Positions 22,611-51,374 of a DNA stretch of 51,374 nt are shown here, one piece after another. The notes under the pieces are model-generated. The model was given only the letters and a program-made list of their open reading frames with translations, was not told the origin of the DNA and ran no database searches. The DNA comes from Xenococcaceae cyanobacterium MO_167.B27. Lineage in GTDB: Bacteria; Cyanobacteriota; Cyanobacteriia; Cyanobacteriales; Xenococcaceae. The stretch is from assembly GCA_030065935.1 (NCBI GenBank), contig JASJCP010000012.1:1-51374 (forward strand), read 5' to 3'. Made by a program: the position numbers and the translations under genes. Position 1 is the first letter of the stretch. Every line of letters starts with the position of its first letter.

Positions 22611-24023
22611 CTAGATATTAGCAAATTTAAACAAGATAAGAGAGTAACCAGACATGGTTACGGATTGAAATTTGATGATCGCTAAAGGGTCAGCAATATC
22701 TGTAATGCCATTTTCAGTGAGGGAAACAGCTTCTACTTTTTGAGCAGAAAATTTGTTGGGAAACATTTGCAAGTTGACTTGGGCGGGTGCAGATGATTTG
22801 TTAATTAGTAAAAGCGATCGCCTTCCTGATTCTTGGTTAACGGCTAGAGATTCTATTTGAGGATTATCACTGTCTGTTTCAACTACTGTACCCGTTAAGT
22901 ATTTATTTCCCCAAGCAAATACAGTAGCAACAGGGCGCAGATTATTTTGGCGATCAATCATGCCATAAATGTTATTTTTTAGATGCCAAGATGTTGCCAT
23001 GTCAATATCAGATTCAGCAAGATGCTTTAATACTGAAGCAAACCACACTGCACCAATATGACTATTCTGACGCAGTTCTCCAGACCTCCAAGAATAGTTG
23101 ATATTATATTCACCAAGTAATAAAGGTATTTTTCGTTCGGGAATATATCTAGATGTTATGGAGCGTAATTTACGTACTTGTTTCTTATAGCCTGGGGTAA
23201 TAGCCATAAGTTCATCGGTAGATTTTTCTGGATTCCCAGTGCCATAGCGATGCCAAGAAATAAAATCGACATTTTCAGCACAATTTTCTAAGAAATTATC
23301 CAGTATCCTGGTATTATCGTAGTTCATTACAGGTCCCCCTATCTTAATACTAGGATCTTTAGCTTTCATGGCTTTTGCTGCTTTATTGTAAATTTGCCAA
23401 AGCTCGTCTAGTCTATTTGCTTTCTCATAGCGTTTCTCTAATTCATTCAAGGGTTCCCAATAGATAATTTGTCGCTTTTGCCTTTGGTTGAGAATGTTTA
23501 CCAGTTCAGCGCATAAGGTAACATAATTGTCATGCTCGGAGGGAGCAAGCAGATTTTTTCCCTCTGTTTTCATCCACTTTGGCCAACGGGGAATATTTTG
23601 AATAATAGTAGGTCTGTGTGGATAAGAGGCATCATAACAAGCTTTAATTGTAGCTTCGTTCCAACTTTTAGTTTCTGAATCTGTCCAGCGATCGCATAAT
23701 TGAGAATGATGAATGCGGATTAAAGGAATATTAAGTTCCGTTAACAAATTTTGAAAGATAGGGTCTTTGGCTCTCTCTAAGATAGTAATTTCATAGTCAT
23801 TAGAACCAAAGACAAAGGGTGTACTTTCGGCAACAGAGGTAGTCCAGTCTATCTTGAGCCGAGAGAAAAAAGATTTTTCAGTAGAAGCTAATGATGTTGA
23901 TAAATTCTGCTTGTCAATAACCAATTGTTGATGATTCAAGCCATCAAACTCATGGATTTTGTCACCAAAAAAAGCTAAAGTTGCACCCAATGCCGATAGT
24001 TTGAGAAGATTTCTACGTCTCAT
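22611..24023 (-). CDS. Exported GH-A clan glycoside hydrolase (GH39-like)
   Basis: This 470-residue protein begins MRRRNLLKLSALGATLAFFG, a Tat-like export signal. A TIM-barrel follows with the clan GH-A signature: N193-E194 in IIYWEPLNELEK as candidate acid/base and E305 in PLLLGEYN as candidate nucleophile. A beta-sandwich-like C terminus (about 390-470) resembles the GH39/GH51-type extra domain. It lies at the downstream end of the polysaccharide operon, 23 nt after the Wzc-like gene, so it probably trims or releases the exported polymer. Family number and substrate are uncertain. A fragment of the gene is duplicated at 20150-20225. Confidence 0.75.
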   Translation of the reverse strand: MRRRNLLKLSALGATLAFFGDKIHEFDGLNHQQLVIDKQNLSTSLASTEKSFFSRLKIDWTTSVAESTPFVFGSNDYEITILERAKDPIFQNLLTELNIPLIRIHHSQLCDRWTDSETKSWNEATIKACYDASYPHRPTIIQNIPRWPKWMKTEGKNLLAPSEHDNYVTLCAELVNILNQRQKRQIIYWEPLNELEKRYEKANRLDELWQIYNKAAKAMKAKDPSIKIGGPVMNYDNTRILDNFLENCAENVDFISWHRYGTGNPEKSTDELMAITPGYKKQVRKLRSITSRYIPERKIPLLLGEYNINYSWRSGELRQNSHIGAVWFASVLKHLAESDIDMATSWHLKNNIYGMIDRQNNLRPVATVFAWGNKYLTGTVVETDSDNPQIESLAVNQESGRRSLLLINKSSAPAQVNLQMFPNKFSAQKVEAVSLTENGITDIADPLAIIKFQSVTMSGYSLILFKFANI

Positions 24024-24046
24024 GATTATAGAGGTTGATTTAGGGG

Positions 24047-26128
24047 TTAATTATGAGATTTTTGGCTGAGAACTTCGGTCTTGACAGGTTCGAGATAACC
24101 CTTGGAATAGGGTCGAGAAGAATTTTCTACACCATTAATTACTAAACCCAAAATTTTGGCATTGTGTTGATGTAATTGTTCAAAACTGCTAAAGACAGAG
24201 TTCCGCTCGCTGATATTGGGACGAACTACATACAATAGGTTGGAAATAGTGGTAGCCATTAAAGCTGTTTCACTGGTGAGACTAACTGGAGGAGTATCTA
24301 TAACAATGTAGTCATATTCTTCATTTAGTTCTGCCATTCCTAAATGTTGGTCAAATTTTCCTTGTTTAACTAAAGCAGCATTCCCGACTTGTTTCTGCCA
24401 AGTAGTTTGCAGATAGAGATTTGATGCTAATTGGATTGGCTTTTCAGTGACTTCCTCTTCTGTGATGGGGGTTAAGCTGTTAGTCAATTCTGCCCTATAG
24501 AAATCCCCATCTACCATGAGAACTCGATATCCTAAATCTGCTAATGCCTTAGCTAATCCAATTGTGACAGTGGTTTTTCCTTCGCCTCTTATAGCACTAG
24601 TAACTAACAAACGGCGATTTTTTAGTGGTTGCAGACTTACTGCTGAAGCTAATCTTTGAAAATCTAATTCTATTTGGGTATTTGGTTGAGAGACTAGATT
24701 TAACCAGAAGTCACTAGTTTTTAAGGAACGTCCAAAGTATTGGAAATTATTGATACAGCCAAGAACAGGAAAATCATAGAACTCTAAATCTTTAGCACTT
24801 AATAAAGGATTGCGTTTTTCGAGTAATTTAACCAAAGCCATGCTACCTACCACCGCAGCAAAAAAAGCATTGAGTTGAATTAGCATAATTTTTGGTTCAA
24901 CTGGTTTGGGGTCAGCAAGGGGTGGCTCTAATACTTGTACATGAGCAAAAGTGTTAAAAGCGTCAATCTTGGCTTGCTGCAATTTAGCAATCAAACCTTG
25001 ATAAACTCCTTCTGCTACATCTTTTTCTTTTTGTAAATTTTGTAAGATGTTTTTATTTACTGGTATTGTTGTGAGAGTCCCTTGAAGTTTCTCAAGTTCA
25101 TTGCCTAATTTTTCGGCTTCTTTAGTTTGAGCTTGAGCTTCAGTTTCAGCTAGGATTAGCTCTTGAATCAAGTTGGTTCGACCTGCGTTATTTGCTACAG
25201 TGGTGTCTATTTTAGCTTCAGCTACTCCTTGTTGGACATACTGCTTAAGCTGATTTCGTAATTGATCTCGTTGGAGTCGCAATTCTTGAACCTGGGGGTC
25301 AGCATCGGTACGGATAGTTGTTAGTTGACCTAGCTCTATATCTACTTCGATCAACTTTTGTTTGATTGATTGATAATTTTGGTTTTCACTCAAACTGACC
25401 GAACTTATTGCTTGAGAAGGAGTAAGACCTAAGCGAGCGGATAAAGCTTGGACTTTTTTCCAGTTGGCTTCAGCGTTCACTTGCGCTTCATATTTAGCAG
25501 CAGACAACTGATGAATTAATTGAATGATTCCACTAGTTTGCTCGTCAGAATCAACTAATCCAGAAGCTTGCTCAAATTGTGCTAACTTTCTTTGAGCATC
25601 TTCTAATTCTTGCTTGGTTTGTTCTAATTCTTTTTGACTGAAGTTGATACGAGCTTCAGAGTCTTCTTTTCGCAGTTGGTTTAAACGCTGCTGATAAATT
25701 TCTATCCATTTCTCTGCTCGCTCTTGAGCTAATTCGGGACTAGAAGCACTGACAGTCAAGTCAATAGTTGTAGATTTGTCAGCAATTTCCACTTGAAATA
25801 AATTTTTGTAGCTTCTAAGACTAGGAAATTCCTCTTTTTCTGGGTCTGAAGCTAAAACTTGTTGCATTAATACGTCACTAGTCAGAATAGACTCCTGGGC
25901 TATGAGTGGGTTAACCTGAGATGAAAAAGTGTCCCCACTATTTAAAGAACCAAGAGTTCCTAAATTAGCATTTAGGTTTCCTGTTCTCTCTGGCATAATT
26001 AATTGTGCGTTAGCTTCCCAAATTTTTGAAGAAGATTTAATTTTTACTATCGTAAAGCTAATAACCAGTAAGTTAAAAGCTAATAAAGGTTTCCAATGTC
26101 TGGTAATAATTGAGGCTATTCTTTTCAT
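24047..26128 (-). CDS. Wzc-type polysaccharide co-polymerase with BY-kinase domain
   Basis: This 693-residue inner-membrane protein controls chain length and export in Wzx/Wzy-dependent polysaccharide synthesis. It has a first transmembrane helix (about 14-30), a periplasmic coiled-coil domain (about 160-385), a second helix after a Pro-rich EPPLADPKPVEPK stretch (about 415-435) and a cytoplasmic bacterial tyrosine-kinase domain. There Walker A is GEGKTT (515-520), Walker A' is VLMVDGD (536-542) and Walker B is YIVIDTPP near 610. The C-terminal tyrosine cluster is short, with only Y674 and Y678 visible. It sits between the glycosidase and acyltransferase genes in the cluster. Confidence 0.92.
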   Translation of the reverse strand: MKRIASIITRHWKPLLAFNLLVISFTIVKIKSSSKIWEANAQLIMPERTGNLNANLGTLGSLNSGDTFSSQVNPLIAQESILTSDVLMQQVLASDPEKEEFPSLRSYKNLFQVEIADKSTTIDLTVSASSPELAQERAEKWIEIYQQRLNQLRKEDSEARINFSQKELEQTKQELEDAQRKLAQFEQASGLVDSDEQTSGIIQLIHQLSAAKYEAQVNAEANWKKVQALSARLGLTPSQAISSVSLSENQNYQSIKQKLIEVDIELGQLTTIRTDADPQVQELRLQRDQLRNQLKQYVQQGVAEAKIDTTVANNAGRTNLIQELILAETEAQAQTKEAEKLGNELEKLQGTLTTIPVNKNILQNLQKEKDVAEGVYQGLIAKLQQAKIDAFNTFAHVQVLEPPLADPKPVEPKIMLIQLNAFFAAVVGSMALVKLLEKRNPLLSAKDLEFYDFPVLGCINNFQYFGRSLKTSDFWLNLVSQPNTQIELDFQRLASAVSLQPLKNRRLLVTSAIRGEGKTTVTIGLAKALADLGYRVLMVDGDFYRAELTNSLTPITEEEVTEKPIQLASNLYLQTTWQKQVGNAALVKQGKFDQHLGMAELNEEYDYIVIDTPPVSLTSETALMATTISNLLYVVRPNISERNSVFSSFEQLHQHNAKILGLVINGVENSSRPYSKGYLEPVKTEVLSQKSHN

Positions 26129-26193: not shown

Positions 26194-26805
26194 TTATGAA
26201 CAACTGATAATTGATTGGGATTCTGGAAGTAAAGATTTAACTATCTGTTGGGGATTACCAATAACCACTACATTAGGTGGTATAGATTTACGGACAACAC
26301 TACCTAGTCCAATAACGCTATTTTCTCCTACACACACTCCTTTCATGACGGTGGCATTTGCGCCAATCCATACATTACGCTCAATTACAATCGGTGCTGT
26401 AACTTTTGGTCCTGGGGGAGCATGACGAAGATGAGGTTCTAAGTTGTGATAATCTGTGTCCAGTAAATAACAGTTAGAAATTAGACAATCATCATTAATA
26501 GAAACCGCTTTTTGACAGCCAATCAAAGAACCGTTTAGAGATACGTTTTTACCTACTGTAACCTCTCCAGAACCAAAAATTTTGACTCTTTTTCTGATGC
26601 GACTGCCAGAATCTATCTTGACTTTAACGCTACCACTAATTTTTAAAGACCCCTTAAGCTTAACTCCTTTGACTAAGGTTAAATTGGGATATCTTAATTG
26701 ATACCATTTACGTTTGACTTCAAAATAGATATCGACAAGTATGTTGAATACTAAGTGATCTAGTCTTTGGGATAATTCAGATAAACTTTTTATTTCAGTG
26801 TGCAT
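26194..26805 (-). CDS. Hexapeptide-repeat acyltransferase (left-handed beta-helix)
   Basis: This 203-residue protein has an N-terminal helical segment and hexapeptide repeats from about 45 to 190 that form a left-handed beta-helix. The C-terminal part (NVWIGANATVMKGVCVGEN, VIGLGSVV, VVVIGNPQQIV) is typical of NodL/WcaF/maltose-O-acetyltransferase-like enzymes, and H residues near YHNLEPHLRH could be catalytic. It probably transfers an acetyl group from acetyl-CoA to a sugar of the polysaccharide repeat unit. Gene order between the Wzc-like and Wzy-like genes supports that. Acceptor sugar is unknown. Confidence 0.85.
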   Translation of the reverse strand: MHTEIKSLSELSQRLDHLVFNILVDIYFEVKRKWYQLRYPNLTLVKGVKLKGSLKISGSVKVKIDSGSRIRKRVKIFGSGEVTVGKNVSLNGSLIGCQKAVSINDDCLISNCYLLDTDYHNLEPHLRHAPPGPKVTAPIVIERNVWIGANATVMKGVCVGENSVIGLGSVVRKSIPPNVVVIGNPQQIVKSLLPESQSIISCS

Positions 26806-26870: not shown

Positions 26871-28205
26871 TTATGTTTTTCTCGATAGCTGTTGCCATTG
26901 AGAACTATAAGAAGGAGGTTTTTCTAGAATTTCTGCCAGAATTGCTCCTAACCACAAAAAGAAAAACCAGATATAAACGGTTATCCAAGAGAGAGGAAGC
27001 CCGTGGATAAATAGATATAAAGCAATTAAACTAGCAAATGCTTTTTTACAAAGGGCATTACCTTCAAGGGCTGGCTGCCAAAAATTGCTCAGGGTTAAAG
27101 CAAGAGCAGCAATAAAAACCATAAAACCGATAATTCCGTGTAAATACAAAACGCCAGCATAAGTGGAAAAAGAACCAAGAGTAACTTCATAGGTGTACCA
27201 GTTGGCTGTTCCTTGAGGAATTCCCCATCCTAACCAGGGAGATTGTTGCCAGGCTTCCATGGTTTTTTGGATGACAAATTCTCGATCTTTCGATGATGAG
27301 GGACGAGCATTATGAAAAATCTCTAGGGGTTTATTCATCAGAGCAGGTAAGGTTAGCTGCCATAAACTGGATAAGAAAGCAGTTAGGGAAAATAACCACA
27401 GAGAGAGTTGACGAGCAAAGAAACTGCGAAAACTAACATAGGCTAAGATTGCTAGAGGAAGGCAAACCCATGCCAAGCGACTGTGACTAATAAGCAAAGC
27501 AGCTAAACTACCAGCTAGAGAAAATTTACGCAGACGAGGATTGGATTCACCTAAACAAATAAAGAAGCAGAGAAGACCACAAATCCCAGGAATAGGAGGG
27601 TCTGGCATATAAAGCGTGGATCTAGGCAATGGAATACCAAATAAAGGATTCAAAAAAGCACTCAGCCATACTATTAGACTTTTATTGCCTGGGATTAAAT
27701 AAGCTATTGGAGGGAAAAAAGTCTGACGACCAACTCCTACTAACAGCATGATTAGTTGTAGCGCAATCGCAATTAAGTACCCTCCAGCCATCCACGCAAC
27801 TGCTCTGGTTATTACCTTTACTCTAATTTGATTTCCAAAGGGTAGAGCTAAACAGGCAAAGATTAAAAAGTAGCCTTTGAAAAAGGTAATAAAAGTAGCT
27901 GCTACTCTAGTCAATCCAAATCCAACGTTGCTAATACCTATCATCGCTGTCCAGAGCATAACTATAGCCATTGCTAGCCATGCCCAAGCACAGTTTGGTA
28001 ATGATATTCTAACGAGTTTGTCAAAATCGAAGGAAATCACTAGCAAACCGATTACTACTGCTGGATAGAATAGAGTTTGTATCCCTAGCAACCACCAAAG
28101 AGGTGTTAGTACAATCGTCCAGTAGATGACCCGTTCAGCAAAGGACAAATCACTCAGACTAAAGTGTTCTTTTTTAGAATTTAGTTTAGAGGTGGCATTG
28201 AACAT
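26871..28205 (-). CDS. Wzy/O-antigen-ligase-like polysaccharide polymerase
   Basis: This 444-residue protein has about ten to twelve hydrophobic helices and a large extracytoplasmic loop before the last helices (about 295-350), the layout of Wzy polymerases and WaaL ligases. The loop contains HNARPSSSKDREFVIQKTM and WLGWGIPQGTANW; the LGWG element is common in this superfamily. It would polymerise lipid-linked repeat units at the outer face of the inner membrane. As the only such gene in a cluster with Wzx and Wzc it is the likely polymerase. Polymerase and ligase roles cannot be separated by sequence alone. Confidence 0.85.
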   Translation of the reverse strand: MFNATSKLNSKKEHFSLSDLSFAERVIYWTIVLTPLWWLLGIQTLFYPAVVIGLLVISFDFDKLVRISLPNCAWAWLAMAIVMLWTAMIGISNVGFGLTRVAATFITFFKGYFLIFACLALPFGNQIRVKVITRAVAWMAGGYLIAIALQLIMLLVGVGRQTFFPPIAYLIPGNKSLIVWLSAFLNPLFGIPLPRSTLYMPDPPIPGICGLLCFFICLGESNPRLRKFSLAGSLAALLISHSRLAWVCLPLAILAYVSFRSFFARQLSLWLFSLTAFLSSLWQLTLPALMNKPLEIFHNARPSSSKDREFVIQKTMEAWQQSPWLGWGIPQGTANWYTYEVTLGSFSTYAGVLYLHGIIGFMVFIAALALTLSNFWQPALEGNALCKKAFASLIALYLFIHGLPLSWITVYIWFFFLWLGAILAEILEKPPSYSSQWQQLSRKT

Positions 28206-28493: not shown

Positions 28494-29627
28494 CTATCTA
28501 CTTAGTTCTGAGTAAAGATTATCAAAGAAAATATTTGCTTTTTCAGAATCATGAATCCTAGCTTGAGAAATTGCTCCAGCACTTAACTGTTCATAATTTT
28601 CAGAACCATCAATGATTTTGATTATAGAATCCAATACTCGATCTGCTAAATTTTCATAGGTTTTATCGAGGATTTCCCAGTAATATTTTGTTGGTCTTTT
28701 GCCTAAATGAATCCAATGTTTATATTGGTTGAGTTCCAAGTCAATGACAAATCCATTGATGTTATTTTTAACAAATTCTGGTAAAGCACAAACATTAGTT
28801 GTTATTGCAGGCGTTCCCACTGAAAATCCCTCCAAAATACTAAATCCATAGGTATCATCAAGAGTACACATAACTTGAAAATGACTTCTCTCCAACAAGT
28901 TTATAACTTTTTCATTAGCTATATTTCTGTATAAAGATACATTTTCTAAGTTGATTAATTCTAAATCTTTTAGATATTTATTTCCATCGGGACAATCAGT
29001 ATATACTTTTGCTCCATAATTCATTCTAGATACCAAGTTTATTTTAATTGGTAATTTCATTGCTGTTGCCTTTTTTGCAATTCTTAATGCAACAATCCCC
29101 CCTTTTCTGGCAAAATGATTTCCTACAAAAGTCAACTCTAAAGTTTCTCCTTTTAAATATTTTTTCGCTTGGGATACTTTTAGAGGAAAATTAGGAGGAA
29201 CAACTATCAGTTTATCTTTTATTGAATTTATCCCCTTAAAGTTAGCTTTTTGCCTTAAAAATTTTTCCTTGGCATGCTCTGACATAGCTATAATTTTTCG
29301 ACAATTTTCTAGGCTTAATCTGTTAATAATTATTGAAGCTAATTTGTCGCCATATTTACCTCTTGTTCTTGGTAATACTGATTCAAAAGTAATAAGCCAA
29401 GGATTTCTTGTATAGGGAATTGCATTAAAAGAATGAATTAGATCAAACTTGGTCGTTAATGGTTTAAACAAACTTACTCCTTGTAAAGGAGACCACATTT
29501 TTTGGAGAATGCGCTCGCCAATATACCAGAGACGATAAGCTTTATAATGTGTAATTTCATCTCTATACTTACGAGGTGAATTAGGAGTTATCAGATTATT
29601 ACTTCCAGTTAAAAGAACTTTTGACAT
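28494..29627 (-). CDS. Family 4-like glycosyltransferase
   Basis: This 377-residue GT-B-fold enzyme probably adds a sugar to the lipid-linked repeat unit at the cytoplasmic face of the membrane. Residues near 160-180 (ELTFVGNHFARKGG) correspond to the start of the C-terminal Rossmann domain. The donor-binding EX7E-type region is visible as TYGFSILEGFSVGTPAITTN near 255-275. The N-terminal part contains DLIHSFNAIPYTRNPWLITFE. It is separated from the Wzy-like gene by a MITE-like element and from the upstream GT2 gene by 69 nt. Donor and acceptor cannot be predicted. Confidence 0.85.
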   Translation of the reverse strand: MSKVLLTGSNNLITPNSPRKYRDEITHYKAYRLWYIGERILQKMWSPLQGVSLFKPLTTKFDLIHSFNAIPYTRNPWLITFESVLPRTRGKYGDKLASIIINRLSLENCRKIIAMSEHAKEKFLRQKANFKGINSIKDKLIVVPPNFPLKVSQAKKYLKGETLELTFVGNHFARKGGIVALRIAKKATAMKLPIKINLVSRMNYGAKVYTDCPDGNKYLKDLELINLENVSLYRNIANEKVINLLERSHFQVMCTLDDTYGFSILEGFSVGTPAITTNVCALPEFVKNNINGFVIDLELNQYKHWIHLGKRPTKYYWEILDKTYENLADRVLDSIIKIIDGSENYEQLSAGAISQARIHDSEKANIFFDNLYSELSR

Positions 29628-29696: not shown

Positions 29697-30641
29697 CTAT
29701 GCACTGCTGAGACTCTGAGTGTTTTTACCCAATAACCCTCGCAATGAGCGTCTAGCATCTCTGGGAATTAACCACATTCCCAAATACAATAGGAAATCGA
29801 TCGCCTTTGGTTTACCATTCTTGATAGATTCCCAAAGAAGAGGTAAAAATTCTTCCCATTGTCTTTGATAAGCTGCTTGTGAGCCTACTTGTACCATCAC
29901 AAAAGCGGAATAGGCTCTCGGTGTTACCAGATGGCGATTTTCACGAATCCAAGTTAGGGAATTTTGCCAGTCACTAGTGCTACTGGTAGTTTGACGTTTT
30001 TCCCATCTATACCAAATAGCTAAAGATTCAGGGACAAACTCAATCCCTACATCTTCTATAGTGTTGGCGCGTAAGATCCAGTCCCAATCTTGATGTTTTG
30101 CCAACCCTTCTTGAAAAGGAACTTTCTGCAATAGCTCTTTTTTAGTGAAAATTGTTGAGGTTTGGATTAATCCTTCCCCAAAGGAAAAACTATTGCGAGC
30201 TAAAAGATACTCGCTTAAAGGCTCTGCTGGTTGGGGAAATCTTCTAGGATATTTAAACTCGCCTTTGGGGGTACGAGAAATCAGACAACAGCTAATAATT
30301 GGACAGGAATACTGAGAAGACATGGCTGCTTCTAATTGTAGTTCTAGTTTTTGGGGCAACCACTCATCATCATCATCTAGGAAAGCAATCCATTCTCCCC
30401 TACTTTGAGCAACTCCAGCATTCCTTGCTCCAGCACCACCCTTACTAACTGGTAGTTGGAGAGTGTGTAAACGAGAATCATCGATTTTGGCTAGCTCTAC
30501 ACAGGTTGCATCATCTTTCCCATCAATAACGATGATTACTTCAGTTTCTTTGAGAGTTTGTTGCAAAACGCTTTTAACTGCTCTTGTAACAAGTAACGGT
30601 CTGTCGCGAGTTGGTATGATAACACTGATTTTAGGTTGCAA
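29697..30641 (-). CDS. Family 2 glycosyltransferase
   Basis: This 314-residue GT-A-fold enzyme has the GT2 pattern: KISVIIPTRDRPLLVTRAV at the start, VIIVIDGKDD near residue 37-46, GGAGARNAGVAQSRGEW and the metal-binding AFLDDDDEW (about 90-98), and a later HQDWDW motif (about 183-188) in the acceptor half. It would use a nucleotide sugar to extend the repeat unit in the cytoplasm. It lies 16 nt downstream of the neighbouring GT4 gene, consistent with one operon. Specific sugar is unknown. Confidence 0.92.
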   Translation of the reverse strand: MQPKISVIIPTRDRPLLVTRAVKSVLQQTLKETEVIIVIDGKDDATCVELAKIDDSRLHTLQLPVSKGGAGARNAGVAQSRGEWIAFLDDDDEWLPQKLELQLEAAMSSQYSCPIISCCLISRTPKGEFKYPRRFPQPAEPLSEYLLARNSFSFGEGLIQTSTIFTKKELLQKVPFQEGLAKHQDWDWILRANTIEDVGIEFVPESLAIWYRWEKRQTTSSTSDWQNSLTWIRENRHLVTPRAYSAFVMVQVGSQAAYQRQWEEFLPLLWESIKNGKPKAIDFLLYLGMWLIPRDARRSLRGLLGKNTQSLSSA

Positions 30642-30657: not shown

Positions 30658-31836
30658 CTAAATTAACTGCCCTAAAACAGCAGGGCTTCTATTGACTTCT
30701 TTATTTTCTTTGGCAATTAAACTGTCATAGATTTTCTCTAGAGCTTGAGTTTGAGTGTGGAGATTAAAATTAGTATTTACTCTTTCTTGTCCTTTATGGC
30801 TCAATTTTTGCCAAAAATCAGTATCTTTTATGAGATAGGTAATATTTTGAGCAAGAGTATTAAAGTCTCTTTCTTTTGCTAGTAAAGCTGTTTCACCTTC
30901 GGCTACTAATTCAGGAATTCCAGCGTGAATAGAGCCTACAACTGGTAAACCCATTGCTTGAGCTTCTAGTACCACCATTGGCGCACCTTCTGTATCCCCT
31001 GTAGCAGCAGTAACACTGGGTACAGCTAGTAACCGTGACTGATTCATCCAACTTCTAACTACTTCTGGTGGTTGCGCTCCCAAAAAACGATAGCGACATA
31101 GTAGCTGTGCTGCTAATTCTTCTAACTTAGGTTTGAGAATTCCATTACCGATGATTACCAATTCTACTTCTGGCATTACCGACTGGACTTGAGCCATAGC
31201 ACGAATCAGATATTCACAACCTTTCTTCTCGGTTAATCTGCCAACAAATAATACTACTGGTTTGCGGTTTACTGTTGGGTCTGGTTTAAATTTATCTGTA
31301 TCTATGCCAATGTAATGAACTACTATCTTTTCTTCTGGGCATCCTTTTTCAATTAGTTTAGAACGGATAAAATCAGATACCGCAATAAATAATTTTGCTT
31401 CTTTAAACAGGATGCGACGACCCCTCTCATAAGTCTGATAGTTCCAGCCAGGTACATACTTACTGCAATCGTTGGAGGTAATATCGTAACCGTGAAAAGT
31501 TACCATCAGGGGTAAGCCTGTTTTTTGAGCTATGGGCAGAGCTAACACTCCATCAATCCCAAAATGGGCGTGGATAAGTTGGGCTTTAATGTCTTTGATT
31601 CTGTTCAACCATCCTGACCAAAGGTATCCAGTCATGGTAAACAATTGACGATAAATTCGGGATTTACCCCCAAAAGGAACAATTACTTTGGCTTTCCCTA
31701 ACTGTTGGGTATCGATGAGCTTTGTACCAACGTAGTAAGGTTCGTATTTTGATAAGGAATTGATTTGAGCAGGAATGAAGGTTTCAGAGTAATGTAACAT
31801 CTCATTCCGAAAGATAATTATGGGCTTTTTGTTCAT
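30658..31836 (-). CDS. Family 4 glycosyltransferase (WcaL-like)
   Basis: This 392-residue GT-B enzyme resembles colanic-acid-type family 4 transferases. HAHFGIDGVLALPIA and TFHGYDITSND mark the N-terminal domain, VVLFVGRLTEKKGCEYLIRA the start of the C-terminal domain, and EGAPMVVLEAQAMGLPVVGS the donor-binding EX7E motif (E at both ends). It acts in the cytoplasm on the growing lipid-linked oligosaccharide. It is 16 nt upstream of the GT2 gene. A C-rich repeat array separates it from the beta-propeller gene. Confidence 0.92.
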   Translation of the reverse strand: MNKKPIIIFRNEMLHYSETFIPAQINSLSKYEPYYVGTKLIDTQQLGKAKVIVPFGGKSRIYRQLFTMTGYLWSGWLNRIKDIKAQLIHAHFGIDGVLALPIAQKTGLPLMVTFHGYDITSNDCSKYVPGWNYQTYERGRRILFKEAKLFIAVSDFIRSKLIEKGCPEEKIVVHYIGIDTDKFKPDPTVNRKPVVLFVGRLTEKKGCEYLIRAMAQVQSVMPEVELVIIGNGILKPKLEELAAQLLCRYRFLGAQPPEVVRSWMNQSRLLAVPSVTAATGDTEGAPMVVLEAQAMGLPVVGSIHAGIPELVAEGETALLAKERDFNTLAQNITYLIKDTDFWQKLSHKGQERVNTNFNLHTQTQALEKIYDSLIAKENKEVNRSPAVLGQLI

Positions 31837-42989: not shown

Positions 42990-44531
42990 TCACTTTTTCT
43001 TTTTCCGAAACTCCTTAAGCATCCGTAACATTTCCCACAAGGTTTGTTTGCCATTGGGCAGAATCATCCATATTGTTAGGTAAAGCAGACCATATATTAG
43101 GCAATCTAGCCCAATAGCGATCGCCAAATTGCTTCCCGTTGACAAGAACTGGTTAATTACCATCAATAAGCCTGCTGCACCAATGGATGCTGAAACTGGA
43201 TGAAACAGAGTACTGGCTAACTCAGTGACTCTCAAAGGTGTTCCTCTGTAGCAATAGATTATTTTTGGCAGCCAAAGAATGGGTCGAGATAAGCCATAAG
43301 CAGCAGCTACACCAACAGCACCCCAACGAACACTTACTACAAAAATCAGGACATCAATAGTTGACATCACCAGTCCGAGCCGAAACTGACGGTCAGTACG
43401 CCCCAAAGATTGATATACCCAAGTTTCTGCCACATTTAACGTGCCAATAAAAGCTGCTGGCATCAACCACCGGAAAATGGGAACGACCCCTAACCATTGC
43501 TGTCCTAAAAACAGAAGAATCATCTTATCTGCTGAAGCAAAGGTAAAGGCAACTAGAGCCATCCCCAAGCTAGTTATTGACAACAGAGCTTTATAGTAAT
43601 AGCGAGAGTATTGTTGCTTCTGAGTCTGCAAACAACTCAGGGTAGGAAGAGCTACACTTGTCATGGGTGCGTTAATTTGTTGAATTGGCAACAGAATTAG
43701 CTGATAAGCTTTGGCGTAAAGACCTAATTCCTGAGAACCCCAAAATCGACCAATGAGAATATTATCTAAGTTACGGGAAACATAATTAACACAGTTAAAA
43801 GCGGTCAAATTTCCTCCAAAAGCCAGCATCGAACCAATGCCAGAGTTCCATACTGGTAATCCTGGTCGCCAACCACAAGCTATCCACACCCCTAGGGTAT
43901 AAACAATCACACTTGTCAGTTGCAGAAACACTAATGCCCAGTAACCTGCTTGATACCAAGCCAATATTACGGCAACGATTAAGCTAGTAAAGAGGGAAAT
44001 GACTGCAATCTTGGCAAGGCTAGTGAAACGCATCTGTCTTCTTAGTAGTGCTTGATGCTGAACACTCAACCCACTAAAAATAAAGACGCTGGCTAAGACA
44101 AGCATGATTGGTATTAATCGAGGTTCGCTGTAAAATCCAGCAATGACAGGTGCTAGAGCTATGAGTAATAAGGTAATAATCAAGCTGATACCCACATTGA
44201 TCCAGAAGAGAGTACTAACTTGCTGGTGATTGATTTCCTCTTTTTGGATAGTCGCTGTAGAAAGCCCCAGATTTTTGAACATCTGCACGAATTTAATCAC
44301 CACAGTGACCATAGCGATTAGACCATAATCTTCTGGGGTTAACAGCCTTCCTAACGCAATAGTGGAGGTCATCTGGATGGCAAATTTACCCGCTTGAGCA
44401 GCTACGGTAACTGCACCACCACGAATAGAGCGACCTCTGAGGTCAGCTTTTAGATGCTCAGTATTGAAAAAATCTTTGGGTTTTTTGGCATTTTGTTTCA
44501 GCACATCAGCCACTCTTCTCGCGAACAACAA
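42990..44531 (-). CDS. Wzx-type polysaccharide flippase
   Basis: This 513-residue membrane protein of the MOP superfamily has about fourteen hydrophobic helices, starting after a basic N-terminal region. The pattern GAVTVAAQAGKFAIQMTS, LGRLLTPEDYGLIAMV and LGLSTATIQKEEINHQQ is typical of Wzx/lipopolysaccharide-biosynthesis flippases. It moves undecaprenyl-pyrophosphate-linked repeat units across the inner membrane. It is 10 nt upstream-adjacent to the GT2 gene at 44542-45495 and completes the Wzx/Wzy/Wzc set of the cluster. Confidence 0.93.
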   Translation of the reverse strand: MLFARRVADVLKQNAKKPKDFFNTEHLKADLRGRSIRGGAVTVAAQAGKFAIQMTSTIALGRLLTPEDYGLIAMVTVVIKFVQMFKNLGLSTATIQKEEINHQQVSTLFWINVGISLIITLLLIALAPVIAGFYSEPRLIPIMLVLASVFIFSGLSVQHQALLRRQMRFTSLAKIAVISLFTSLIVAVILAWYQAGYWALVFLQLTSVIVYTLGVWIACGWRPGLPVWNSGIGSMLAFGGNLTAFNCVNYVSRNLDNILIGRFWGSQELGLYAKAYQLILLPIQQINAPMTSVALPTLSCLQTQKQQYSRYYYKALLSITSLGMALVAFTFASADKMILLFLGQQWLGVVPIFRWLMPAAFIGTLNVAETWVYQSLGRTDRQFRLGLVMSTIDVLIFVVSVRWGAVGVAAAYGLSRPILWLPKIIYCYRGTPLRVTELASTLFHPVSASIGAAGLLMVINQFLSTGSNLAIAIGLDCLIYGLLYLTIWMILPNGKQTLWEMLRMLKEFRKKKK

Positions 44532-44541: not shown

Positions 44542-45495
44542 TTATCTGGAATGGGTTTTTACTGTACCTAAAGTTTGTTTAATCCCCAACTTAGCCAAGG
44601 GTGCAACTTTCACCGATATTAAAGTAAGGAGCGATCGCCAATCTCGATAAAAGATCGAACCATCACTACTCAAGGCTACGTCTATAAAATAGCGAGCTTG
44701 TCCTACATTTCCAGCAGTTAAGGATAGCCTTGCTAGATAGCGGTACATATAAGCATAGGCGGTGGGTAAAATAGATTGAACTAGCTCAGGAGAGCGTTTA
44801 TAAGCTGCGGAAATCACTTTTTCACGACTACGCTGCATCTGTTGAACGTTAAAAGAAAGTCCAGAAGGACAAACTCGATAACAACATAAAATATGTGGTA
44901 AGCGATAAAAGCTCCAGCGTCTAGTTTCAGCAACTCGCAGCCAAAAATCTATATCTTCACAACTTCGTAAAGTTTCATCGAATCCACCTACCTCGTCAAA
45001 AATGCAGCGACGAAATACAGCATTTGAGCCATGACCAATGAAATTTTTACACAGTAATGCCAACAGAGGATCGGACTTGACTGGTTTACCACTCAAAACC
45101 ATAAAAGTTGGCTTTCCGTCTTCGCGAATTGCTCTAGAAGCACTATAAACAACACCAATTCCCGTTGAGTGAGCCAATGGAATTACATGAGTGATTAACT
45201 TGTCTGGTTGATAAATATCATCACCGTCCAGCAGAGCGATATATTCCCCTTGAGCGTGACGAATACCATAATTTCTCGCTGATGCTAATCCACCATTTGG
45301 TTTTTGTAATAAGCGAAAACGAGAGTCTCGCTCACAAAAAGATTTGACTATCTCAGCCGTATTATCTGTAGAGCCATCATCCACAATCAGCACCTCAAAA
45401 TCTTTATAAGATTGTCTCTCTAAAGATTCAAGAGCATCTGCAATATAGGCACTAATGTTATAAGCAGGTACAATGACACTAACTTTTGCTAACAT
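44542..45495 (-). CDS. Family 2 glycosyltransferase
   Basis: This 317-residue GT-A enzyme has the classical GT2 signature: KVSVIVPAYNISAYIADALE, VLIVDDGSTDNTAEIVK (about 35-51), GGLASARNYGIRHAQGEY, LDGDDIYQPDK (the DxD site, about 90-100), and CEDIDFWLRVAE in the acceptor half. It works in the cytoplasm on the lipid-linked repeat unit. It is next to the Wzx-like gene (10 nt) and 85 nt from the WecG-like gene upstream. Sugar specificity is unknown. Confidence 0.93.
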   Translation of the reverse strand: MLAKVSVIVPAYNISAYIADALESLERQSYKDFEVLIVDDGSTDNTAEIVKSFCERDSRFRLLQKPNGGLASARNYGIRHAQGEYIALLDGDDIYQPDKLITHVIPLAHSTGIGVVYSASRAIREDGKPTFMVLSGKPVKSDPLLALLCKNFIGHGSNAVFRRCIFDEVGGFDETLRSCEDIDFWLRVAETRRWSFYRLPHILCCYRVCPSGLSFNVQQMQRSREKVISAAYKRSPELVQSILPTAYAYMYRYLARLSLTAGNVGQARYFIDVALSSDGSIFYRDWRSLLTLISVKVAPLAKLGIKQTLGTVKTHSR

Positions 45496-45580: not shown

Positions 45581-46459
45581 TTACATTTTGCTGACACGCA
45601 AATCAGAAATTCCTAGAGATTTAGCTAGGGCAATCTGAAGCATGAAAGCTGGATTACCAATTAAATACCGTCCTCCTAAACGTCTAGGTTCAGAAATTAG
45701 ACGATAAAGCCACTCCAATCCACTATTGGAAATCCATGGTGGACATTCAGCAACAACACCAGCTAGTCGATCTATGATTGCCCCACAAGGCATAATTACA
45801 TTAACTTCAAGCTCCCGACGATATTCTTGAATCCATTTCTCTTGGGTGGGCATTCCCATACCAACCAGCAAGATATTAGGCTTGAATTGGTTAATTTGCT
45901 CGACTATAGCCTGGTTTTGTTCGGTATTTTTCTTGTCGAAATATCCATCATGTCCAGCTATTTTTAGTTCGGGATATTTCTGTTTCACTCGTTGCATAGC
46001 TTCTTCTAAATACTTTGGTGTTGAACCTAGCAAAAAGAAGGAGAAACTATTTTGGTTGCCATATTCCAGCAGTTTTGGCACAAAAGCTGTACCAGAAACT
46101 CGATACTGAAGGGGAAAGTCATTTCCCATCCACTGTAAAGCTTTTAATATACCAACCCCATCACAACGAGTAATATTAGCACTTTGTTGAAATTCATAAA
46201 ACCAGGGTAATTGCATAGACAAGTTAAAACTATGTACGTTATAAGACGCTATGGTTAGTTTTTTCTCTTCTACACAGGCTGAGTGAATAGCATTCATGAT
46301 AGCGGTTGCTGTCATTAAGGTAATTCGTCGTTCCAAGAGTTTTACACTCAAGTTAGGTAAATCATTTGACTGGTTTTTCTGCAACAAAGAAACATACTCA
46401 GTATCCTGATTCCAAGATGAGGTTTCCACCTTCGTAATCATTGATTTTACCTCATACAT
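45581..46459 (-). CDS. WecG/TagA/CpsF-family glycosyltransferase
   Basis: This 292-residue GT26 enzyme probably adds the second sugar to undecaprenyl-pyrophosphate-N-acetylsugar, an early step of repeat-unit assembly at the membrane. Visible motifs are ITRCDGVGI (about 96-104), FFLLGSTPKYLEEA, GHDGYFD, LVGMGMPTQEKWI and the C-terminal WLYRLISEPRRLGGRYL. It is the first minus-strand gene of the cluster, next to the 900-bp divergent region. Met-7 (46441) is another possible start because the first residues (MYEVKS) lack family likeness. The initiating phosphosugar transferase is not in the window. Confidence 0.9.
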   Translation of the reverse strand: MYEVKSMITKVETSSWNQDTEYVSLLQKNQSNDLPNLSVKLLERRITLMTATAIMNAIHSACVEEKKLTIASYNVHSFNLSMQLPWFYEFQQSANITRCDGVGILKALQWMGNDFPLQYRVSGTAFVPKLLEYGNQNSFSFFLLGSTPKYLEEAMQRVKQKYPELKIAGHDGYFDKKNTEQNQAIVEQINQFKPNILLVGMGMPTQEKWIQEYRRELEVNVIMPCGAIIDRLAGVVAECPPWISNSGLEWLYRLISEPRRLGGRYLIGNPAFMLQIALAKSLGISDLRVSKM

Positions 46460-47359: not shown

Positions 47360-48175
47360 GTGAAATTATCAGTTGTCATACCTGTCTATAATGAGATTCA
47401 CACTTTAGACACTTTATTAGCCAAAGTAATCTTGGCTTGTCCAGAAATTCCCAAAGAAATAGTCATGGTAGATGATTGTTCTACCGATGGCACTAGGGAG
47501 TGGCTAGTAGATAAGTTTGGACACACAGATAGCAACTCTGTTCATTTAGATCTGAGCCATGAGCGTCAATTAGTGACGATAAATGGCAATGAGCCAGAAT
47601 TACAAGAGTCTGCTTTAAGTATTGCCTTGCCTCAAAAGCCTCCTGTCAGGGTAAAAGTTATCTTTCACAAGAAAAACCAAGGTAAAGGTGCTGCCTTACG
47701 AACTGGATTCCAAGCTACTACTGGAGATGTCATAGTTATCCAAGATGCTGACTTAGAGTACAACCCCCAAGACTGGGGTCGGATGTGGGATTTAATCGCA
47801 GAAGGATGGGCAGATGTAGTCTATGGCTCTCGCTTTTATGGCAATCCTCACCGTGTCCTTTACTTCCATCATTTACTAGCTAATAAATTTATTTCCAATC
47901 TCATCGACTTATTCTGTAATACCACTTTGAGTGACATCGAAGTGTGCTATAAAATGTTTCGTCGTGAAGTATTAGAAGGAATGAAACTCACCTCCAATGA
48001 CTTCGGATTCGAGGTGGAATTTACCGTAAAAGTGACTAGATCCCGCCGTCGCTGGCGTATCTATGAAACAGGAATATCTTATTACGGGCGAACTTATGCT
48101 GAGGGTAAGAAAATTAACTGGAAAGATGGATTAAAGGCATTGTGGTACATTCTCAAGTTTAGATTCCTGAGTTAA
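47360..48175 (+). CDS. Family 2 glycosyltransferase, dolichyl/polyprenyl-phosphate-mannose synthase-like
   Basis: This 271-residue GT-A enzyme resembles DPM1-type synthases, which make polyprenyl-phosphate sugars used by GT-C transferases. It shows LSVVIPVYNEIHTLDTLL, VMVDDCSTDGTREWL (about 35-49), HKKNQGKGAALRTGF, VIQDADLEYNPQDW (about 130-143), and the late EVCYKMFRREV and YYGRTYAEGKKI motifs. A stretch of about 45 residues (55-97) between the first two motifs is longer than usual. The frame stays intact there. It lies 13 nt before the next gene, and a GT-C-like protein follows further down, which fits a lipid-phosphate-sugar donor role. Confidence 0.9.
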   Translation: MKLSVVIPVYNEIHTLDTLLAKVILACPEIPKEIVMVDDCSTDGTREWLVDKFGHTDSNSVHLDLSHERQLVTINGNEPELQESALSIALPQKPPVRVKVIFHKKNQGKGAALRTGFQATTGDVIVIQDADLEYNPQDWGRMWDLIAEGWADVVYGSRFYGNPHRVLYFHHLLANKFISNLIDLFCNTTLSDIEVCYKMFRREVLEGMKLTSNDFGFEVEFTVKVTRSRRRWRIYETGISYYGRTYAEGKKINWKDGLKALWYILKFRFLS

Positions 48176-48188: not shown

Positions 48189-49163
48189 ATGGCAAAATTT
48201 TCTAGAATTCTGATTTGTGGGCGGACTTGGCTGCGGGGATTAATTGGTGTAGCACTAGGAGTCTTATTTTTCTGGCTGGCTTTACGCCAAACCAGTTGGG
48301 CGCAAGTACAAGCCATACTCTCTCAAGCGGACAATCAATGGTTGGTTATAGCCATAGGTTTTTACACTGCCAATATGATTGTTAGAGTAGTGCGCTGGCG
48401 TAGTTTGCTTTGGGACATAAAACATCTCTCTTTTCAGTCTGTGGGGATAGTTCTTGTAGTGGGTTACGCTATGAACAATATTTTACCCGCTCGTCTGGGA
48501 GAATTATTCCGCGCCAATTTTGCTGGAAGACGTTATCGACTTTCTCGTATGGCGATCGCAGGCTCAATTGTGGTAGAACGAGTCTTAGATGGACTCATAG
48601 TAGTTTTATGTCTAGTCCTAGGAAGACTATTCATCAGTGAACAAACAGTTTTGCTCAGTAGCTTGACCACAGTGGCAGGCACATTATTTTCGGTAATTTT
48701 TATCGTTTTGTTGATTTCAAGTCGAAATTCCCCACAAAATTGGACTATTCCCTTACCTGCTGCCGTTAATCAAAAAATTCAGGGCTTTTGCAAGGGTTTA
48801 TCTAGTCTGCGTGGCAGTAGGTTAGCTCAGACTGTATCTCTTTCTCTCATAGTGTGGTTGTTAGAGGGAATAGCTCAGTGGTCAGTCTTAAAAGCAATAG
48901 ACTTATCTTTAAATTGGCAGCAGATGCTATCTGTTATGGGTTTAGTGAATTTAAGTACTCTTGTTCCTTCTGCCCCTGGCTTTGTTGGCACTTACCAGTA
49001 CGCCTATGCCTTAGCAGTCAGCTTATTTAGTTATGATTCAGCCCAGGGAGTAGCAGCAGCTACAGCAACTCAAATCTTTCTCCTAGGAAGCTTGACTTTA
49101 ATAGGGATGGGATTTTATTTCTATATAAGTCTGCAACAAAGGGGTGGGGAATATAAGGCATAA
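48189..49163 (+). CDS. LPG-synthase-like (flippase-like domain) membrane protein
   Basis: This 324-residue protein has about eight transmembrane helices and belongs to the lysylphosphatidylglycerol-synthase transmembrane (UPF0104, AglD/MprF N-domain-like) family. YAMNNILPARLGELFRA (about 95-111) and VVERVLDGLIVVL (about 128-140) are typical, as is the late PSAPGFVGTYQYAY (about 255-268). Members are linked to lipid or glycolipid translocation in membrane-glycan pathways. It follows the GT2 gene by 13 nt, so they likely form one operon. There is no MprF synthase domain. Confidence 0.88.
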   Translation: MAKFSRILICGRTWLRGLIGVALGVLFFWLALRQTSWAQVQAILSQADNQWLVIAIGFYTANMIVRVVRWRSLLWDIKHLSFQSVGIVLVVGYAMNNILPARLGELFRANFAGRRYRLSRMAIAGSIVVERVLDGLIVVLCLVLGRLFISEQTVLLSSLTTVAGTLFSVIFIVLLISSRNSPQNWTIPLPAAVNQKIQGFCKGLSSLRGSRLAQTVSLSLIVWLLEGIAQWSVLKAIDLSLNWQQMLSVMGLVNLSTLVPSAPGFVGTYQYAYALAVSLFSYDSAQGVAAATATQIFLLGSLTLIGMGFYFYISLQQRGGEYKA

Positions 49164-49189
49164 GGGATGAGGGATGGTGGGATACGAGG

Positions 49190-49446: not shown

Positions 49447-49507
49447 CCTCCTCAATCCTCATCCCTCATCATTCATCCTTTCAATATATTAAATCTCAAT
49501 TAATTTA

Positions 49508-51130
49508 ATGAATTATAATTGTCATTTCTTCAAAAGCCACGTACCAAAATTGTTGCAAACTTCCACTAAAACATTATACTGGTCTGCCTTAATTGCTTTG
49601 GTTTTAGCACTTGCAATCTTTCCCATCTGGTATCAAATTTTTAATTCTCAACTTAGTTATGTGGTTTTTTCAACGTTAATTAGCTATGTGTGGATGACCG
49701 TTCTATTTATTAGTACAGTCCATATTTGGCAAGAAAAACTAAAAACCAGATTGGGGACAACCAGCTATATAATTTTTCTTTCCACAACCTTAAGTGGATT
49801 CTGGATGCTAGTGTTTTACCCTGCTGTCCTGTCTATTGATGCCTTGTATCATTGGCAAGATGCTTTAAATAACCAATACAATACATGGCACCCTCCTATT
49901 CTCGCCATGCTTATGCACCTGACACAGTATTTTGTGAATAATCCTAGTTTGTTTAGTTTTATTCAAGGTACATTATTTTGGGGTTCTATCTTCTACCTAA
50001 TTAGACAAGTTGTTAGAAACAATAGGTTATTTCTCATCAACTGTAGCTTGATTATTTTACTACCATCCCTATGGCTTTATTCTAATGCTACTGTGTCTAA
50101 CAATTGGATGACTAGCTTTACACTATTAACCATAGCTTTCTTAATTAAATCAATTCATCAAAACAGCAAGACTTTATTTACTTTATCGATTATTACTCTG
50201 TCTATGGGAGTAACGTTTAGGCGAGAAACTATTTTTTTCGTCTTGATAGTTATGCCAATTTATATATTATTTTTTGGTCGTAATAGTAGTCTTTTGAAAA
50301 AAAGTAGAGAGCTAATTCTAATTCTTTTAATAATCTTATTACCAGGTAAAATTATCGAACTTAGTCCGAATGTAGACAGGAATAATAACCCAACATCTCA
50401 TGGATTACTCAATCAATACGTAGGGACAGTTTATTATTCTCGCAATATTATGGATGAATCAGAAATTAATCGGGAAAAACAGTCGATAAATCAGGAATTT
50501 GGTTCAGGTACTTTTCAAAAACTTCTTGACGGTTATATGTGTGCTTCAGCAGGTTATATTGTGTGGGATAAAGATGTTCCTGCTGCTATTGGTAAAATTC
50601 CTAAAGAACAAAACAGCTTTATTGTTAGCAAAATAATTCAGACTGCAATTAGACATCCTCTTGGATACCTCACACATCAGGCTTGTTATACTGCTTATCT
50701 TTTACAAGTTCCCAATAATCCATCCTATCAGACTTGGGGAATTCTCAAGGAACAACCAATCGTCACCCAAGAGCGCGCCCAAATGGGTATCGAATTTGAC
50801 AGCAAACTACCAACAATAAAAGCTTGGTATGTCAATCTGCTTAATACTCTTCTAGATAATAAAATATTTTCACTCATCTTTAGACACTATATTTTTCTAA
50901 CTCTTTCGGCAATTTTTCTGGTAGTTGGTCTTTTAAATCGTAAAATTGAGTTAATAATTCCGTCACTCTTTAGTGTGATATATCCTGTGGGCTATTTGAT
51001 TGTCGCACCAGCTAATCTTTGGCGATATTTATTACCTTCCTATTTGTGTTCTTGGATTTGTTTGCTAGTTATTTTCAATGGGTTTGTTACCAAAAAAATT
51101 AACAAAAAGAAAAAATTGGCAACTAACTAA
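49508..51130 (+). CDS. GT-C-like polytopic membrane protein
   Basis: This 540-residue protein has about twelve hydrophobic helices. The first loop region after helix 3 (LSIDALYHWQDALNNQYNTW, about 114-133, then HPPILAML) has acidic and His-Pro residues as in GT-C enzymes that use polyprenyl-phosphate sugars. A long soluble stretch (about 295-425, with NNNPTSHGLLNQY) lies between helix groups. I do not recognise a named family. It lies downstream of the polyprenyl-phosphate-sugar synthase-like GT2, which suits a donor-acceptor pair. A related architecture is seen in the protein at 37230-39086. Confidence 0.7.
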   Translation: MNYNCHFFKSHVPKLLQTSTKTLYWSALIALVLALAIFPIWYQIFNSQLSYVVFSTLISYVWMTVLFISTVHIWQEKLKTRLGTTSYIIFLSTTLSGFWMLVFYPAVLSIDALYHWQDALNNQYNTWHPPILAMLMHLTQYFVNNPSLFSFIQGTLFWGSIFYLIRQVVRNNRLFLINCSLIILLPSLWLYSNATVSNNWMTSFTLLTIAFLIKSIHQNSKTLFTLSIITLSMGVTFRRETIFFVLIVMPIYILFFGRNSSLLKKSRELILILLIILLPGKIIELSPNVDRNNNPTSHGLLNQYVGTVYYSRNIMDESEINREKQSINQEFGSGTFQKLLDGYMCASAGYIVWDKDVPAAIGKIPKEQNSFIVSKIIQTAIRHPLGYLTHQACYTAYLLQVPNNPSYQTWGILKEQPIVTQERAQMGIEFDSKLPTIKAWYVNLLNTLLDNKIFSLIFRHYIFLTLSAIFLVVGLLNRKIELIIPSLFSVIYPVGYLIVAPANLWRYLLPSYLCSWICLLVIFNGFVTKKINKKKKLATN

Positions 51131-51311
51131 TGTTTACAAAATGTTGATTTAGCTTGAATTAGGTATTAAATTAATCTCATAATAGATTAAACCAAACCCA
51201 ATATTCATGGAAAAAGCTATTAGCCGTTAGCTACAGTTGTCTGCAACTTTGATCCAAGCCACTCAGCTAGCCAAACAATATTTACTAATAACGGAAAAAA
51301 ATAACTAAACT

Positions 51312-51374
51312 ATGAAACAAATTTTAGTCACAGGCGCAGCAGGATTTATTGGCTTTCATCTCACTCAACAACTC
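51312..51374 (+). CDS. NAD-dependent epimerase/dehydratase, 5' end only
   Basis: The first 21 residues begin MKQILVTGAAGFIGFHLTQQ, the Rossmann GxxGxxG nucleotide-binding start of sugar-nucleotide epimerases. UDP-glucuronate 4-epimerases often begin almost exactly like this, but the family cannot be fixed from so little. The gene continues beyond the window. Such an enzyme fits the polysaccharide context. Confidence 0.8.
   Translation, partial: MKQILVTGAAGFIGFHLTQQL

Follow-up and report, generated by a model that had tools for sequence, protein, structure and literature searches.

Introduction

In Citrobacter, a polyprenyl-phosphate phosphoribosyltransferase (PPPRS) joined to a HAD phosphatase domain makes polyprenyl-phosphate-ribofuranose and a GT-C enzyme adds the sugar, the flippase having been assigned from sequence and context (Kelly 2024, PMC11127046). 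In cyanobacteria, the xss cluster makes the sulfated polymer synechan, with its outer-membrane polysaccharide exporter (OPX) encoded elsewhere, and Table 1 of that study lists ribose as N.D. (PMC8205485). Reviews name both ribose and sulfate as peculiar components of cyanobacterial exopolymers (PMC4500136, PMC4390846), and calcium spirulan of Arthrospira is a sulfated polymer with ribose (PMC5741684). Here we describe 22 genes lying within 22611-51130 of contig JASJCP010000012.1 of Xenococcaceae cyanobacterium MO_167.B27 (a 7.02 Mb draft, 98.55% complete); this whole contig of 51374 bases (G000:C83) is the window referred to below. We put at about 65% the probability that they form a locus of the Wzx/Wzy type whose product is an extracellular polysaccharide, probably sulfated and bearing ribofuranose.

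A predicted phosphoribosyltransferase and its proposed phosphatase

The UbiA-family protein of the window scores 242.4 on NF008978, the model for decaprenyl-phosphate phosphoribosyltransferase (cut-off 207), and its nearest solved structure is the Mycobacterium tuberculosis enzyme of this kind, DPPRS Rv3806c (8j8j, E 2.4e-37). Twelve residues around phosphoribosyl pyrophosphate (PRPP) and magnesium have been named for Rv3806c, of which N73 and D77 are common to other UbiA enzymes, but its phosphoribose-binding sites are described as not conserved across the UbiA superfamily (PMC10994848). The window protein is identical at ten of the 12: R22, K28, Y70, N73, D77, K87, R90, Q135, Y138 and K143. 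By its profile score and PRPP site it is a PPPRS-type polyprenyl-phosphate phosphoribosyltransferase.

The YqeG-type protein of the cluster carries the HAD nucleophile motifs DLDNT and GDSLHTD. It is 52-59% identical to the YqeG of 18 other module loci (two of which, L076 and L079, lie on contigs that stop short of the expected place of UbiA), and 72% identical to the copy in G391, a genome of the same family and another genus; a second YqeG of the window genome, on contig C182, is 24% identical to it. By these identities the cluster protein belongs to a separate, UbiA-linked subfamily, and we propose it as the phosphatase for the 5-phosphate of lipid-linked ribose. Its match to PF09419 is over the cut-off, as would suit a phosphatidylglycerophosphate phosphatase beside a UbiA that is an ordinary prenyltransferase; the more distant copy on C182, set against the closeness of the cluster protein to those of the module loci, and a UbiA with ten of the 12 named PRPP-site residues make this highly improbable. 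A housekeeping role for the cluster YqeG was likewise rejected, since the genome has another YqeG besides it and it groups with the UbiA-linked ones. The literature search found no paper on YqeG as a phosphatidylglycerophosphate phosphatase.

A GT-C fold protein linked to UbiA

Two cluster proteins, of 618 and 540 residues, match no Pfam family over the cut-off. Searching PDB sequences with a profile of the 618-residue family returned only weak, unrelated matches (best E 0.2), so a fold search was needed. The AlphaFold model of the 618-residue protein, based on a 26-row alignment, has a predicted local distance difference test (pLDDT) score of 84. In a Foldseek search, for which the VIA-align rows were used, the first rows being poor global fits, its transmembrane bundle (residues 1-423) matches GT-C enzymes, with Z scores of 23.8 for ALG12, 20.7 for AftB, 20.2 for ArnT, 18.4 for AftD, 16.1 for EmbB and 15.4 for AftA; residues ~425-618 form a beta-sandwich like that of GH15/GH92 enzymes (Z 15.9 to glucodextranase). 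Across the 26 aligned rows F62, D65, R82, H86, P87, T203, W323, H358, Y361, G362, F366 and N407 are invariant. D65 sits directly after the first membrane helix, the position of the proposed catalytic Asp in several GT-C enzymes (PMC11127046). The modelled fold indicates that the 618-residue protein is likely a transferase.

Of the 386 genomes surveyed in the phylum, 48 contain a UbiA of the window type at E 1e-30, with 21 passing the curated cut-off, and nine contain the GT-C family (E 1e-8), all nine among those 48. Four of the nine supplied query sequences, which biases the p value of this figure, and we therefore use the five non-query genomes, all of which contain UbiA (p 1.6e-5, not a strict probability as the genomes are related). 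The two genes are 0.8-1.2 kb apart in three of these five, 12.8 kb apart in one and on separate contigs in one. A scan of named genomes yielded 34 GT-C loci, 18 with UbiA in the examined flank (17 of 33 without L069, which is the same stretch as the query member L050, with an identical GT-C): seven cyanobacterial loci, all nine Variovorax loci, one Nitrospiraceae locus and one alphaproteobacterial contig. UbiA directly precedes the GT-C gene in Variovorax, and L096, the one locus scanned there, has a HAD-UbiA fusion; UbiA and YqeG of L053 and the UbiA of several Variovorax loci were located by tblastn and by hand. Two further loci have YqeG and an SMR gene at the contig edge, and one more (L071) has DprE1/DprE2 in its flank. 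Plasmid searches returned a UbiA relative at 63% identity in Kovacikia minuta, among 89 records, as well as one weak GT-C match and distant sulfotransferases.

Longer relatives of the GT-C protein, of 1039-1122 residues with an extra C-terminal region, occur in 16 of the 17 cyanobacterial scan loci and in the proteobacterial metagenome-assembled genome at L084 (loci considered: L044, L050, L069-L081, L083-L085 and L087). The extra region appears GH15-like (PF00723 in L050, below cut-off) and is absent from the window and G391 proteins; a PDB sequence search with the L069 region returned nothing meaningful (best E 0.86). Fusion of a GT-C enzyme to such a region is an odd arrangement.

Possible ribose-type and arabinose-type loci

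We compared UbiA neighbourhoods at 24 of the 26 class-level places other than the window's own; the two left out, in G179 and G247, come from the genus of G089. UbiA, YqeG and SMR occur together in ten of the 24, DprE1 and DprE2 lie nearby instead in 11, and neither YqeG nor DprE1 is present in three. YqeG and DprE1 are found together in none (Fisher p 1.5e-4), which suggests that the UbiA loci fall into a ribose type and an arabinose type. The preliminary description had taken the UbiA/YqeG pair as a hint of a pentose, and this is well supported: the pair is a recurrent module with corresponding biochemistry published in Citrobacter (PMC11127046). A lipid-linked-ribose mechanism, a third member in the form of the 618-residue GT-C protein, and ribose rather than arabinose had not been foreseen.

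A search of the window genome for the ALO domain of DprE1, whose control matched Corynebacterium glutamicum among others, was negative, no direct search with a cyanobacterial DprE1 having been made; ribofuranose rather than arabinose is therefore the expectation for the lipid-linked pentose, and the arabinose route is not preferred. The pentose could instead be epimerised before use, giving a polymer with arabinofuranose or xylofuranose in place of ribofuranose. Some pentofuranose systems do use DprE1/E2 or an ORF13-type epimerase (PMC11127046), and DprE1/E2 lies near UbiA in the 11 neighbourhoods above and beside the GT-C relative of L071; a divergent DprE1 could also escape the ALO search. 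Epimerisation is nevertheless rather unlikely: scans of the cluster genes returned no epimerase family, the window genome gave no ALO match, and the G391 cluster has an SMR gene as its sole extra gene.

Sulfotransferases

All three sulfotransferases (ST1-ST3) carry the 5'-phosphosulfate-binding (PSB) loop and R[DEN]P motifs of the type that uses 3'-phosphoadenosine 5'-phosphosulfate (PAPS), and they lie beside the Wzx/Wzy genes; their matches to PF00685 or PF13469 exceed the cut-off. ST1 matches heparan sulfate 3-O-sulfotransferases (E 7e-20), ST3 matches the sulfotransferase structure 3rnl (E 1.1e-71) and, less closely, heparan sulfate enzymes (E 1.5e-10), and ST2 has a weak match to tyrosine sulfotransferase (E 0.0044). 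A simple hydropathy scan found no membrane segment in any of them. These matches and motifs, with the homology to XssA and XssE of the xss cluster, support the earlier claim of a sulfated polymer, and we conclude that the cluster polymer is probably sulfated. The window genome has 38 Sulfotransfer_3 matches, some genes being counted twice; a second sulfotransferase-dense locus, with nine matches in some six genes, glycosyltransferases and a Wzc-like match, lies at ~21.7-35.7 kb of contig C86 (L114, L115).

Conservation and layout of the cluster

On contig C311 of G391 (L106, L107), 21 of the 22 cluster genes are present with order and orientation kept, and their proteins are 70-87% identical to those of the window over the aligned residues; because of this shared order and identity, the cluster is a real unit and not a chance assembly. 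Pairwise dN/dS between the two genomes is 0.12-0.27 in all 21 shared genes. The cluster is patchy in the family: relatives of the 618-residue protein are found in three of 27 family genomes, namely the window genome, G391 (72%) and G396 (47%), and none was found in three further genomes of the window's genus, each 76-81% complete. In G396 the relative is a 1098-residue fusion whose surroundings differ; a UbiA fragment lies ~7 kb away, at the edge of the stretch.

Genes were typed by Pfam and NCBIfam scans of the cluster proteins (Table 1). Nineteen genes, from that for WecG down to that for the GH39-type glycosidase, are on the minus strand and three on the plus strand; the last of these ends at 51130 and the contig at 51374. 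Wzx, Wzy and the polysaccharide co-polymerase (PCP) Wzc occur together in the one locus, along with WecG and six other GT2/GT4 enzymes. No exporter (OPX/Wza) gene lies in the cluster, but other contigs of the genome, C103 and C82, hold two PF02563 matches. Every gene type named in the preliminary description (Wzx, Wzy, Wzc, WecG, GT2/GT4, three sulfotransferases, a glycosidase, an acyltransferase, a methyltransferase, UbiA and YqeG) was recovered in its place by Pfam and NCBIfam, and to that inventory we add the 618-residue GT-C protein, a BNR propeller protein and the divergent trio at 47360-51130.

Table 1. Genes of the cluster, with positions in the window and the evidence for each assignment.
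Feature	Position	Strand	Evidence
GH39-type glycosidase, probably periplasmic	22611..24023	-	PF01229 over cut-off; N-terminal RRRNLLKLS, Tat-like by eye; 72% identical in G391
Wzc-like polysaccharide co-polymerase, P-loop NTPase domain	24047..26128	-	GNVR, CbiA/ParA over cut-off; Wzz slightly under
Hexapeptide acyltransferase	26194..26805	-	PF00132 over cut-off
Wzy-like polymerase	26871..28205	-	PF04932 (Wzy_C) over cut-off; 8 hydrophobic segments
GT4 glycosyltransferase a	28494..29627	-	PF00534
GT2 glycosyltransferase a	29697..30641	-	PF00535
GT4 glycosyltransferase b	30658..31836	-	PF00534/PF13692
BNR beta-propeller protein, Ycf48/sortilin-like	32039..34402	-	PF15902, PF14870, NF045728 over cut-off
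Sulfotransferase 1 (ST1)	34393..35220	-	PF00685 E 9.4e-20; PSB loop GAQKAGSS, EKTP, RNP
Sulfotransferase 2 (ST2)	35238..36059	-	PF13469 E 9.1e-17; GHAKSGTT, RDP
Sulfotransferase 3 (ST3)	36207..37118	-	PF13469; GAAKAGTT, EASP, REP
618-aa GT-C fold protein, proposed lipid-P-ribofuranose-dependent transferase	37230..39086	-	Predicted fold, UbiA linkage
Class I methyltransferase	39089..39763	-	PF13489; slot of the SMR gene in G391
YqeG-type HAD phosphatase, proposed 5-phosphoribosyl-lipid phosphatase	39858..40388	-	TIGR01668 over cut-off, E 3.3e-48; DLDNT, GDSLHTD
UbiA-family polyprenyl-phosphate phosphoribosyltransferase (PPPRS/DPPRS)	40554..41534	-	NF008978 over cut-off
GT4 glycosyltransferase c	41722..42936	-	PF00534
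Wzx flippase	42990..44531	-	PF13440 E 6.7e-91
GT2 glycosyltransferase b	44542..45495	-	PF00535
WecG/TagA/CpsF glycosyltransferase	45581..46459	-	PF03808 E 4.1e-57
GT2 resembling polyprenyl-phosphate sugar synthases (AglJ-like)	47360..48175	+	PF00535; TIGR04182 E 1.2e-24, below cut-off
LPG_synthase_TM (AglD/YbhN-like) membrane protein, candidate substitute flippase	48189..49163	+	PF03706 E 1.1e-46
540-aa multi-span membrane protein, possible second GT-C	49508..51130	+	PMT_2 E 0.013 in G391 ortholog, below cut-off

The BNR propeller protein has hydrophobic segments at its N- and C-terminus and is kept in G391 (71%). The divergent trio, a GT2 enzyme, LPG_synthase_TM and the 540-residue membrane protein, resembles a second lipid-phosphate-sugar module; the family of the last is found in one of the 386 genomes, that of the window, and in G391, and so is seen in this cluster only, and its predicted structure, from a two-sequence alignment, has pLDDT 38. 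Outside the cluster, a 217-residue reverse transcriptase (RVT_1) match at 18754-19407 lies upstream of a Ser/Thr kinase gene (20365-22542). The short stretches 14957-14991, 20170-20224 and 41662-41695 match G391 at unrelated places, perhaps as a dispersed small repeat.

Discussion

In the scheme that we infer, for every reaction, product and linkage as well as for ribose and sulfate sharing one polymer, the repeat unit would be assembled in the cytoplasm, on a lipid, by WecG and the GT2/GT4 enzymes, Wzx would flip it, Wzy would polymerise it, and Wzc together with the exporter encoded elsewhere would export the product. Sulfotransferases need cytoplasmic PAPS, and since the three enzymes have no predicted membrane segments they would act in the cytoplasm, probably before the Wzx step. 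UbiA and YqeG would make lipid-linked ribose, which the 618-residue GT-C protein would add outside the membrane, after the Wzx step.

Several observations weigh against this scheme. The window UbiA is below the cut-offs of the sister models NF008977 and NF008976 and differs at two of the 12 PRPP-site residues, Y157 being replaced by F, a change of a type that occurs in some mycobacteria (PMC10994848), and K208 being aligned with S. Of the 34 GT-C loci, 13 have no UbiA, YqeG or DprE1 in the examined flank; L084 is among these and shows an SMR-like match. No initiating sugar-phosphate transferase was found among the cluster genes scanned, the rest of the genome not having been searched for PF02397. 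Searches of the window genome with two different queries, the second of which matched eight of 14 control genomes, turned up no SMR gene, which leaves the flipping of lipid-linked ribose as a step without an assigned gene. Lastly, none of 65 stretches around UbiA or GT-C genes in other genomes contains a sulfotransferase match (E 1e-6); this set counts the L069/L050 duplicate as well as L068, a further flank of G008. Ten of the 12 query proteins are recognised sulfotransferases, while STc2 and STc7, from contig C86, coincide with no Sulfotransfer_3 match. Among the loci examined, sulfotransferases thus stand beside the ribose module only in the window and G391, and their proposed joint action on one polymer rests on the synteny of these two genomes.

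That absence of sulfotransferases elsewhere would suit a module that is merely located in the cluster and glycosylates something else, such as a pilin or other protein, lipopolysaccharide or another glycan; indeed, PPPRS has been proposed to serve pilin O-arabinosylation in Pseudomonas (PMC11127046). We consider this unlikely, as the module holds the same position within a 21-gene order in two genera, between GT4 c/Wzx and the sulfotransferase genes and on one strand.

The flippase step bears on a different alternative. Between YqeG and the 618-residue gene, G391 encodes a 112-residue SMR-type protein where the window has a methyltransferase that is unmatched by any open reading frame of the G391 contig (E 1e-4). 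With SMR gone from its slot and none found in the genome, the module might be decaying in the window genome, no ribose being added there although G391 still does so. Yet the UbiA, YqeG and GT-C frames and motif residues are intact, and the pairwise dN/dS values of these genes (0.13, 0.175 and 0.18, respectively) lie within the range of the cluster, a measure in which recent loss would not yet show; decay is in our view quite unlikely. If ribosylation does proceed in the window genome, LPG_synthase_TM is one candidate for the flippase of lipid-phosphate-ribose, because a HAD-LPG_synthase_TM fusion follows UbiA in L039, and Wzx might also flip the lipid-phosphate-pentose. The L039 fusion (10404-12014) lies directly after UbiA with DprE2/DprE1 downstream and is perhaps phosphatase and flippase in one. 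A GtrA search gave one match, on contig C64 of the window genome.

Three-component pentofuranose systems are known, and so are sulfated Wzx/Wzy clusters. We found no description, in the literature examined, of the union of the two, the YqeG-type phosphatase, the cyanobacterial SMR partner or a GT-C family with a GH15-type sandwich. Our searches of the open-licence literature, most subscription journals being outside its scope, brought up no paper assigning genes to ribose addition in cyanobacteria. The wider proposal is that cyanobacteria have their own extracytoplasmic ribofuranosylation, comprising UbiA, a free YqeG-type phosphatase, an SMR flippase and a GT-C family distinct from those described so far, in many cases with a GH15-like fusion, and that it is here built into a Wzx/Wzy cluster with three sulfotransferases to give a ribosylated, sulfated polymer; we hold this to be an even bet. 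If true, it would explain genetically where the ribose of cyanobacterial polysaccharides comes from and provide a marker for ribosylated glycans, with YqeG as against DprE1/E2 separating ribose from arabinose loci, together with what may be a new GT-C family and a potential tool in the glycoengineering of sulfated polymers.

Comparison with known systems

The synechan cluster, on plasmid pSYSM of Synechocystis PCC 6803 (L113), shares with the window Wzx/Wzy/PCP, a TagA-family glycosyltransferase, several other glycosyltransferases and sulfotransferases. A gene-by-gene comparison with this characterised sulfated-polysaccharide cluster shows homology at 21-37% for the sulfotransferases, Wzx, Wzc, WecG and some glycosyltransferases: ST1 and ST3 are 26% identical to XssA and ST2 is 22% identical to XssE, with 23% for Wzx, 21% for Wzc and 37% for WecG. 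The xss cluster has two sulfotransferases and a sugar transferase annotated in the region, whereas the window has three sulfotransferases, and the 40 kb xss region contains no UbiA, YqeG or 618-residue GT-C match (tblastn, E 1e-3).

The three-component system of Citrobacter youngae O1/O2, as described in PMC11127046, consists of a PPPRS-PRP, a MATE flippase and a GT-C enzyme of family GT136. Common to it and the window are an Rv3806c-type PPPRS, a HAD phosphatase, a GT-C protein with a C-terminal beta domain and a polysaccharide locus. The window differs in that its phosphatase is a separate YqeG-type protein, of another HAD type than the Citrobacter domain, and in that the usual cyanobacterial partner, not found in the window genome, is of the SMR type and not MATE. 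The C-terminal domain is a GH15/GH92-type beta-sandwich in the window protein and an Ig-like carbohydrate-binding module in C. youngae, GT136 being compared by its description only, and the locus is that of a probably sulfated cyanobacterial polymer as against C. youngae O1/O2. The main text of PMC11127046 makes no mention of 'cyanobacteri' or 'YqeG'.

The mycobacterial arabinan pathway through decaprenylphosphoryl-5-phosphoribose and decaprenylphosphoryl-arabinose (DPPR/DPA) employs Rv3806c, Rv3807c, DprE1/E2, Rv3789 and the Emb/Aft enzymes. Unlike it, the window has a phosphatase of the YqeG HAD type rather than the Rv3807c type and no DprE1 domain that we found, and the proposed target is an exported polysaccharide and not arabinogalactan. 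The two nevertheless have in common the type of first enzyme, most of the PRPP site and GT-C enzymes predicted to act on lipid-phosphate-pentofuranose, and G391 and other cyanobacteria also encode an SMR-family transporter, as has been proposed for mycobacterial Rv3789.

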